Positions 3,832-5,932 of a DNA stretch of 64,000 nucleotides are shown here, in pieces. Both the position numbers and the translations under genes were made by a program. Source of the stretch: Natronobacterium gregoryi SP2 (GTDB lineage Archaea; Halobacteriota; Halobacteria; Halobacteriales; Natrialbaceae); the NCBI RefSeq assembly GCF_000230715.2, contig NC_019792.1:1-64000 (forward strand), given 5' to 3'. Below the pieces are notes generated by a model. That model did not search any database. It was not told where the DNA came from and saw only the letters and a list, made by a program, of their open reading frames with translations. Numbering within the stretch: the first letter of the stretch is position 1; each line of letters opens with the position of its first letter.

Positions 3832-5025
3832 ATGAACACCGTCGACGCGGCAGGACTAGATATCGGGGACGGCCACCCACCCCGTATCATGGGCGTGTTG
3901 AACGTCAGCGAGGAGTCTCCCTATGATCCGAGTGTGTACGACGATCCCGGCGAGGCAGCCCAGTACGTCGACGAACAGCTCATCGACCAGGGAGCGGATA
4001 TCGTCGATATCGGCCTCGAGTCGGCGAACAAGCGATTCGAAGTCCTTTCGGCCGAAGCGGAACTCGAGCGACTCCACGTCGCGCTCGAGACGATCGAGAG
4101 CGTCTCCGGCGACGCCGTTTTCTCGATCGAGACTCGCTACGCTTCCGTCGCCGACGAGGCGATTTCGAAGGGGTTCGACGTGGTCAACGACATCTGCGGG
4201 TTTGCAGATCCGAAGATGTCGACCGTCTGTGAGGAGTACGACGTCGCCGTTGCGAAGATGGCGAGTCCGCCGGACTTACAGCGACCCGGTGCGGTCGAGG
4301 AAACCGACTGGGAACGACGCAAGTCGCCCGACTGGGCTGCCCAGGCCGACTACGTCGATCAGGTCTACGAGGCGCTCAAACAGAACGGCCTCACCGACAA
4401 GACGATCGTCGACCCTGCCTTCGGCGGCTGGAGTGAGGCACAGACCGTAGCGGACGACCGCGAGACGTTTCGACGGCTCCGGGAGTTTCGTGCGCTCGGC
4501 CAGCCGATCCTGGTCTCGATCAATCGGAAGAACTTCCTCGGTGATGTCGCTGACCGCGATACAGCGGACCGGCTCCCGGTCAGCCTGGCGGCCACGTCGA
4601 TGGCCGTCGAACGCGGCGCGGACGTCGTCCGGACTCACGATGTCGCCGAGACGCGCGACGCCGCCCTGATCGGTGAGTCATTCTCGGAGCGAACGAGCGT
4701 CACGGTCGACGGCGTGACGATTTCCCGGCTGGATGTCGCCACTACTCGCGAACTCCAGCGTCACCTCGAAGAACGCGATATCGACCCCAAGTCGATCGAT
4801 CGGTGGCGATCCGAACTGCTCGAAATCGACGGATTGCCGACAGACGAACGCCAGCGCCTGGTCGCGGCCGCCGCCGACGCGGGCGCATCGACACACCCCA
4901 CCCCCAGTAATGGTGTCTTACTCGCTGGCACCCCGGCCACGTTTTCAGATCTTTCGTCCGTTTTAAAAGTCGATATCGGGGGCGAGAGCAGTCTAGACGA
5001 AGAAATAGAGAATATACTACAGTAA
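3832..5025 (+). CDS. folP: Dihydropteroate synthase-like protein
   Basis: The 397-aa protein has a pterin-binding TIM-barrel domain over residues 1-270. It opens with IMGVLNVSEESPYDPS (the DHPS signature MGxLNVTPDSF in altered form). It also has DIGLESAN, a DVVNDICGFADPKM segment, VDPAFGGW and a VRTHDVAETRDA ending typical of DHPS. Residues 280-397 form a C-terminal extension not needed for the barrel. DHPS joins a hydroxymethylpterin diphosphate to p-aminobenzoate or, in archaea, a related arylamine on the way to folate-type or pterin cofactors. The next gene downstream is mptE, which supplies the pterin diphosphate, so the pair makes pathway sense. The altered signature leaves room for a non-canonical substrate. 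Confidence 0.85.
   Translation: MNTVDAAGLDIGDGHPPRIMGVLNVSEESPYDPSVYDDPGEAAQYVDEQLIDQGADIVDIGLESANKRFEVLSAEAELERLHVALETIESVSGDAVFSIETRYASVADEAISKGFDVVNDICGFADPKMSTVCEEYDVAVAKMASPPDLQRPGAVEETDWERRKSPDWAAQADYVDQVYEALKQNGLTDKTIVDPAFGGWSEAQTVADDRETFRRLREFRALGQPILVSINRKNFLGDVADRDTADRLPVSLAATSMAVERGADVVRTHDVAETRDAALIGESFSERTSVTVDGVTISRLDVATTRELQRHLEERDIDPKSIDRWRSELLEIDGLPTDERQRLVAAAADAGASTHPTPSNGVLLAGTPATFSDLSSVLKVDIGGESSLDEEIENILQ
5008..5019 (+). promoter_or_regulatory. Candidate TATA box of a possible structured RNA
   Basis: GAGAATATACTA overlaps the last codons of the DHPS gene. It is the only AT-rich block locally, and its centre is about 24-25 bases before the GCCGG stem at 5038, the usual archaeal distance between TATA centre and transcription start. 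Confidence 0.35.
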
Positions 5026-5037
5026 GAGAAAGCTTAT

Positions 5038-5117
5038 GCCGGAGGCTTCGAAACAGGGGAGTGGACGCCGGGCGGCCTCCCGGGTAGGGGTACTTCGGAG
5101 GCGACCCCCGGCCCACA
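5038..5117 (+). ncRNA. Possible structured RNA with H/ACA-like fold
   Basis: A GC-rich 80-base stretch between folP and mptE has no coding sense. A lower stem GCCGG (5038-5042) can pair with CCGGC (5108-5112). An internal pocket has AGG on the 5' side (5043-5045) and GCGACCC on the 3' side (5101-5107). Above it, CTTCGAA (5046-5052) pairs with TTCGGAG (5094-5100). The apical part can form further GC pairs (CCGGG with CCCGG). The trinucleotide ACA stands at 5115-5117, 14 bases after the upper stem. That spacing is what archaeal H/ACA pseudouridylation guide RNAs show. A TATA-like block sits upstream. No rRNA target was matched, and a chance fold in GC-rich DNA is a real alternative. Confidence 0.35.
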
Positions 5118-5227
5118 ACACAGAATTATTGGGATGTTACTCGCCCAGTGGCGACGCTCGTCCGGCTGGTACTGCCGAACACCGACGAACCGCCAGTCTC
5201 GAGTAGTTTCGCTGTGAACTACGCCTG

Positions 5228-5932
5228 ATGGAGTTCGACGACTGGGAGCCGGTCTACGAGGCGGTTCTCGCTGACTTCGGCTACGATCGTGCTGGGGACG
5301 AACGAGCACGAGACGTGCTCGCGTCGCTGACTGGTTCGTTCGGTCTCGAGACGTTATCGTCGGTCGCGGACGGCACCGTCGTCGTCGCTGGCGCTGGCCC
5401 CTCGCTCGAGGACGAAACTGACCTCGAGCGCGCACGTGGGGCCGACGCCGTGTTCGCGGCATCGACGGCAGCCGACGTTCTCGGAGAGAACGACGTTACC
5501 GTCGACTGTATGGTCACCGATCTCGACAAGAACCCAGGAACGGTCCGTCGACTCACGGCCCGTCGCGTCCCGGTCGCGGTCCACGCTCACGGCGACAACG
5601 TCGACGCAATCCGATCGGTCGTCCCCGACTGTACCGACGAGTACGTCCTCCCGACCACGCAGGCAGCCCCGGTCGAACACGTCAGGAATTTCGGTGGGTT
5701 CACCGACGGCGACCGGGCGGCTTTCCTCGCCGATCATCTCGGCGCGTCCGAACTCGAGTTCGTCGGCTGGGAGTTCGACGATCCTGCCGTTTCTCCGGCA
5801 AAAGCGCACAAACTCGAGTGGGCAGAGCGATTGCTCTACTGGCTCGAGGTGCGACGGGACGAACGGTTCGACGTGTTGGACGGACGACGCGACGGTATCG
5901 AGACGCGCTCGCTCCCGCTTTCCGAGGAGTAG
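5228..5932 (+). CDS. mptE: 6-hydroxymethyl-7,8-dihydropterin pyrophosphokinase MptE-like
   Basis: The 234-aa protein belongs to the DUF115/MptE family, which in archaea replaces FolK. It transfers pyrophosphate from ATP to 6-hydroxymethyl-dihydropterin. Visible hallmarks are VVVAGAGPSLED near residues 50-61, FAASTAADVL, CMVTDLDKNPG near 95-105 and VHAHGDN near 120. The FVGWEFDDP and KAHKLEWAERLL stretch in the C-terminal third matches the family end. Length is typical. It lies 200 bases after the DHPS-like gene on the same strand, which gives a plausible two-step pterin module. Confidence 0.86.
   Translation: MEFDDWEPVYEAVLADFGYDRAGDERARDVLASLTGSFGLETLSSVADGTVVVAGAGPSLEDETDLERARGADAVFAASTAADVLGENDVTVDCMVTDLDKNPGTVRRLTARRVPVAVHAHGDNVDAIRSVVPDCTDEYVLPTTQAAPVEHVRNFGGFTDGDRAAFLADHLGASELEFVGWEFDDPAVSPAKAHKLEWAERLLYWLEVRRDERFDVLDGRRDGIETRSLPLSEE

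Follow-up and report, generated by a model that had tools for sequence, protein, structure and literature searches.

The folP-mptE intergenic region

The window analysed here is a stretch of 64,000 nucleotides from Natronobacterium gregoryi SP2, whose genome (G000) consists of a single contig of 3,788,356 bases. A folP-like and an mptE-like gene follow each other on the same strand of the window, and the region between them contains a gene for a small hairpin RNA, designated RNA1, behind a promoter-like block (Table 1). Searches with a covariance model (R1, described below) detected one copy of RNA1 in G000. With Rfam 15, no matches were obtained in the window at the gathering score, and a relaxed threshold gave matches at chance level only, the best scoring 16.8 bits where the cut-off is 60. 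The literature searched, mainly open-access papers without their supplements, assigned RNA1 neither to a family nor to a function.

Table 1. Features of the folP-mptE region of N. gregoryi SP2
Feature	Position	Strand	Basis
folP-like gene, upstream neighbour of RNA1	3832..5025	+	Pfam PF00809 Pterin_bind, E 1.2e-40; ORF
BRE/TATA-like promoter block AAGAGAAAGCTTATG, kept in relatives	5024..5038	+	alignment of relatives
RNA1, rod-shaped hairpin of about 60 nt	5060..5119	+	covariance-model match
Basal stems, 5' arms: P0 (5061-5064), P1 (5067-5072)	5061..5072	+	fold
AC, 2-nt bulge between P0 and P1	5065-5066	+	fold
P2, 5' arm	5075..5080	+	own 5-nt complement in 68/82 relatives
Apical hairpin GGGUA-GGGG-UACUU, nearly invariant	5082..5095	+	alignment
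P2, 3' arm	5097..5102	+	fold; complement test
3' arms of P1 (5107-5112) and P0 (5113-5116); ACA (5115-5117) of the initial annotation overlaps the end	5107..5116	+	fold
AT-rich block, AATTATTG type, 3' of RNA1	5125..5131	+	conserved in aligned Natrialbaceae
mptE-like gene, downstream neighbour of RNA1	5228..5932	+	Pfam PF01973 MptE-like, E 6.5e-17

An initial annotation of this DNA had proposed an unannotated non-coding RNA in the gap and had taken it for an H/ACA-like guide. The first part of this proposal is upheld by conservation throughout the class, by stems that covary, by a promoter at fixed spacing, and by a small RNA of Haloferax mediterranei, 58 nt long, that appears to map to the same place; the second part is rejected for reasons given in the next section. 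The TATA-like block that had been noted at the end of folP is present, but what relatives conserve is AAGAGAAAGCTTATG directly 3' of the folP stop codon, whereas AATATACTA inside folP varies. The GC-rich hairpin stretch was confirmed as well, but the body of RNA1 starts about 22 nt past the TATA block according to the covariance-model match, not near position 5038 as suggested.

Relatives of the region were aligned, leaving 75 sequences after removal of identical cores. Largely fixed are the loop, the first part of the hairpin, and the promoter-like sequence AAGAGAAA-NCTTAT; the stretch from promoter to hairpin is variable. From the end of the TATA block to the loop, 43-45 nt were counted in 74 of the 75 sequences; the remaining one, with a variant loop, gave no distance. 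Judged from these sequences, RNA1 appears to possess its own promoter. Since RNA1 starts right after the folP stop codon, it could also be regarded as a 3' end element of the folP mRNA, a terminator or a stability hairpin. In relatives, however, the promoter-like block at fixed spacing separates folP from the hairpin, and a plain terminator would not be expected to have a nearly invariant loop or to recur at scattered places, as the second RNA described below does. Such an element is therefore improbable. The AT-rich block of the AATTATTG type behind RNA1 could be a 3' end signal of RNA1, the TATA box of mptE, or both.

Distribution and structure of RNA1

The DNA of the gap was matched (E<=0.001) in 45 of the 61 genomes searched, a count that includes the window's own. 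When 80 loci were fetched by means of the MptE protein, the gap element was detected by blastn in 86 of the resulting total of 110 loci. Sixteen MptE loci lacked the loop pattern; in one of these, L094, a divergent RNA1 was detected by the model. The covariance model R1 was built from 46 sequences, with the structure assigned by hand; RNAalifold applied to a plain MAFFT alignment misfolds RNA1, P2 being misaligned there. In the window, R1 matches RNA1 with 75.3 bits (E 1e-14), the window sequence itself being part of the R1 alignment. A search of other haloarchaea for conserved, covarying stems had been proposed together with the H/ACA reading, and its outcome was positive: RNA1 is present in 340 of 391 genomes of Halobacteria, once per genome among the matches listed, and its stems covary. 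About 13% of the genomes are without it, and RNA1 is therefore not essential to the class. In a sample of 294 genomes across the phylum, R1 matched in 48 of 53 Halobacteria and in none of 241 others, as divided by kinship labels. In genus g60 the R1 match is 58 nt long in all 15 genomes searched, and RNA1 is nearly identical among them.

A few observations lie beside this distribution. In Natrinema thermotolerans the folP-RNA1-mptE locus (L197) is carried by a replicon of 987 kb that is listed as a plasmid (CP031304.1). Phage records were unmatched by RNA1, and 17 viral contigs containing a related 16-base pattern were judged by eye to be chance occurrences inside coding sequence. A weak DNA match in genome G001 (L111) was dropped as an RNA1 paralogue because it looked coding.

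RNA1 is predicted to fold into one rod consisting of P0, P1, and P2, and topped by P3 (5082-5086/5091-5095), which encloses GGGG. The folding energy of the single sequence is not better than that of shuffled sequences (z 0.27; 116 of 200 shuffles equal or better), so that the fold alone proves nothing and support has to come from comparison instead. When 21 hand-chosen relatives were folded singly, each yielded a rod of this kind, ending in the tip. For covariation, an alignment (A3) of 90 loci with 82 distinct rows was fitted to R1, and the pairing statistics therefore lean towards the proposed structure. On the 82 rows, 96.0% of the pair cells are paired, as compared to at most 50.5% with slid partners. 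None of 500 shuffles reached this level of pairing, nor did any reach the covariation score of the stems. Changes on both sides occur in six of 13 pairs, a number reached by two of 500 shuffles, and in five of the eight pairs of the basal helix P0/P1. P2, which is absent from the R1 model, was examined separately: a 5-base complement of its own arm is found in 68 of the 82 relatives, whereas with swapped arms the number was 26.6 on average and never above 37. The apical part, GGGUA-GGGG-UAC, is almost invariant; the A-U pair closing the loop is kept in all 82 rows, and the next pair changed from U-A to C-G once. Taken together, these comparisons indicate that the stems are conserved as structure, with compensatory changes.

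These pairing data also bear on a coding interpretation, by which the region would specify a leaderless micro-ORF starting with GUG or AUG near the 5' end and reaching, after 8-9 codons, a UAG stop in the invariant loop. In 60 of the 82 distinct relatives, the UAG of the loop is indeed preceded by an in-frame start codon. In the other 22, however, no such start is found, the distance to UAG shifts by one base in 12 of the 82, and base changes follow pairing. A micro-ORF is accordingly considered quite unlikely.

Several features of the window had suggested a guide RNA for pseudouridylation of rRNA. Its hairpin carries ACA 13-14 nt past the upper stem, and a small internal loop is seen in the Natrialbaceae fold. 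The lower and upper stems described in the initial annotation do exist, but they are parts of one rod, and the pocket between them is only CG opposite GACC, that is 2 and 4 nt versus 5-8 and 5-6 nt in an archaeal H/ACA guide. In the singly folded relatives L079, L098, and L100 it is fully or nearly fully paired. ACA, which had been placed exactly 14 bases after the upper stem, is found at 5115-5117, but it starts 13 positions past the last P2 base and its first two bases are paired in P0. Of the 82 distinct relatives, 34 have ACA at this place and 48 have ANA. A K-turn or K-loop was not recognized by eye: the apical part, GGGUA-GGGG-UAC in nearly all relatives, is devoid of a GA/UGA motif. Targets in rRNA had been suggested as a further check, and not a single U site in 16S or 23S rRNA fits the pocket with 4+4 pairs, 0.2 being expected from shuffles. 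The three known pseudouridine sites of haloarchaeal rRNA, psi1956, psi1958, and psi2621, are served by a published H/ACA guide with two hairpins (PMC2584109, PMC4652768), and none of these sites is addressable by any strand pair of RNA1. A strict pattern for the known hairpin HP2 yielded two matches in G000 and four in a reversed control, and the true guide was not located in this way. An H/ACA function of RNA1 is thus extremely unlikely.

RNA2, another RNA carrying the tip

The 13-mer of the loop recurs unaltered in 26 genomes, and these copies led to a second RNA, RNA2. A locus with promoter and hairpin was detected in G000 (C1:1198901-1198949, minus strand), G003, and G008. RNA2 carries the same GGGUAGGGGUAC tip as RNA1, its own promoter-like block, and an AT-rich end. 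RNA2 is contained in L113, L173, and L215, and further copies in L174-L178, L196, and L198-L227. Other exact copies of the 13-mer are mostly within apparent coding sequence and are unconserved across genomes; those in L114 and L164, by eye, are presumably within genes for leucyl-tRNA synthetase.

By DNA search, RNA2 was found in five of 61 genomes, among them that of the window. A covariance model (R2) of six sequences gave matches in 31 of the 391 genomes of Halobacteria, with one to three copies each. Among the matches listed, a promoter block of the CCACAAA-N-CATATT type is present in most RNA2 loci, and a stem resembling GGUGGACAG...CUGUCCACC together with the tip in all of them. Over 27 distinct rows, 99.7% of the cells of the stem are paired, which none of 500 shuffles reached, and four pairs are changed on both sides; in further pair types, however, the stem did not exceed shuffles (384 of 500). 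RNA2 is accompanied by RNA1 in all 31 genomes (P 0.011, uncorrected for kinship), and 23 of these belong to the window's own family.

No neighbouring gene is common to all RNA2 loci, sharing being restricted to small groups. Neighbours that could be identified are EF-2 and a transposase in G000, an AAA ATPase, RNase J, and SRP54. The gene for the transposase, of the DDE type, is located just upstream of RNA2 in G000 (L173:1711-2535). EF-2 is convergent to RNA2 in the same genome, and so is the annotated next gene of the one copy found on a plasmid. The tip, recurring on RNA2 without universal neighbours, is therefore kept away from mptE.

Functional interpretation of RNA1 and its tip

The constant neighbourhood of RNA1 has to be considered first. 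Synteny was inspected in 38 loci, which came from DNA and model searches or were hand-picked for diversity, and in ten more that were low-scoring or distant. mptE adjoins RNA1 in all 38 and all ten of them; folP was found in 36 of the 38, one of the other two being near a contig end, and in eight of the ten. Strict synteny of this kind keeps a cis-acting role alive, and the main rival of the interpretation favoured below is that RNA1 acts in cis as the leader of mptE. The transcript would run into mptE, and the rod would control termination or translation in a riboswitch-like, protein-bound, or attenuating manner, so that an RNA of about 58 nt would be a terminated or processed mptE leader.

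In 119 RNA1 loci, the loop is separated from the ATG of mptE by between 47 and 338 nt. In ten of these the distance is 47-57 nt and no TATA-like box is visible where one would be expected, as a leader would have it. Furthermore, in at least five loci without RNA1 (L071, L072, L073, L076, L091) the folP frame, by eye, extends almost to mptE, leaving only a few bases between them. On the other hand, in many lineages a TATA-like box is located between RNA1 and mptE at -34..-20; loci with a distance of 70-75 nt mostly have such a match (5-6 of 6 positions). With this box mptE would be transcribed without a leader from a promoter directly 3' of RNA1, and two separate transcripts are plausible. In Natrialbaceae the distance grows to 338 nt with RNA1 and its promoter remaining fixed, and RNA2, with the same tip, is no leader in the two loci examined, in which the next gene is convergent. 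In view of these data, a leader function appears somewhat unlikely.

The gap between RNA1 and mptE shows some peculiarities of its own. In the window (5131-5228) and in L131, L047, L048, and L055, it is extended in Natrialbaceae up to several hundred bases. A stretch like CCGAACACACAAAC, possibly a small gene on the opposite strand, recurs shortly before mptE in these lengthened gaps. Across families, a motif like GAGCGACAGC is found just before the start of mptE, sometimes twice (e.g. L149, L151, L243-L257).

In RNA1 and RNA2, located at different places, the stems are kept by pairing and the tip by sequence, which suggests that the tip is the acting part. A nearly unchanged tip that recurs in RNA2 probably docks a shared partner. 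An acting tip in turn is better accounted for by an RNA working in trans with such a partner than by a mere leader or terminator. RNA1 may well be a stand-alone small RNA gene of Halobacteria of this kind. The promoter right behind the folP stop codon would start an RNA of about 58-60 nt, which would fold into one rod, end just before mptE, and present the nearly fixed tip GGGUA-GGGG-UAC. The tip, perhaps together with a conserved basal UGGA bulge, would dock one shared partner, for which an RNA-binding protein is more likely than an mRNA. This partner would be bound by RNA2 as well, which would serve as a copy or as a titrating decoy.

Base pairing of the loop to rRNA was also considered. Complementarity is within chance, which was counted in favour of a trans-acting RNA with a partner: equal or better energies were obtained with 34 of 40 shuffled loops for 23S rRNA and with 16 of 40 for 16S rRNA. 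An antisense role of the loop was dropped because of these energies and because the 13-mer copies are mostly coding and unconserved. Counted against action in trans were the adjoining mptE in 48 of 48 checked loci, the few lineages in which RNA1 ends very near the start codon of mptE, the roughly 13% of genomes without RNA1, the single-sequence folding within the range of shuffles, and the fact that no partner, target, or phenotype was found in this analysis.

More tentatively, a regulatory or ribonucleoprotein system built on one docking module, the GGGUA-GGGG-UAC tip, could exist in haloarchaea. It would comprise the class-wide, single-copy RNA1, the mobile-looking RNA2 as decoy or copy, and a dedicated haloarchaeal partner reading the tip. 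RNA1 would constitute a new Rfam family, and it offers a promising starting point in the search for an RNA-binding partner, since few partners of small RNAs are known in haloarchaea.

The working idea, RNAs that share a hairpin tip and bind one protein, resembles that of CsrB and CsrC, which are titrating RNAs. There is no sequence relationship to RNA1, the match of CsrC in the relaxed Rfam search being at chance with only 7.1 bits, and RNA1 and RNA2 have one tip per RNA, whereas CsrB and CsrC have many. The closest published counterpart is HM42_V of H. mediterranei, an RNA of 58 nt on the minus strand of the chromosome between HFX_2905 and HFX_2904 (folP) (PMC5852579, Table 2). It was taken by similarity from small RNA candidates of H. 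volcanii and was positive in RNA-seq (PMC5852579). Like RNA1 it is a short intergenic RNA adjoining folP on the same relative strand; in PMC5852579 it figures as a list entry, which gives neither a function nor a family and describes neither structure nor distribution. We infer that HM42_V is RNA1 and HFX_2905 is mptE because the order of the genes, the strand, and the length agree, rather than from a comparison of sequences. With this identity, the published data would mean that a transcript of the size of RNA1 exists.

The haloarchaeal H/ACA guide with HP1 and HP2 is likewise a small hairpin RNA from an intergenic region (PMC2584109, PMC4652768), but RNA1 has neither its two hairpins nor the pockets for its three sites nor its K-turn. 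The intergenic small RNAs of H. volcanii, such as IG1.7/htsf242 and s194, are similar to RNA1 in being short, intergenic, and expressed on their own (PMC6104027, PMC3956466). IG1.7/htsf242, compared here by its description only, has 74 nt and is described as mostly stem (PMC6104027). Unlike RNA1, these RNAs are mostly reported as non-conserved, and 22 of 27 haloarchaeal small RNAs tested were confined to H. volcanii (PMC3956466). Against this published picture of small RNAs that are hardly conserved among haloarchaea, RNA1, recurring across the class with a nearly fixed loop, is an exception.
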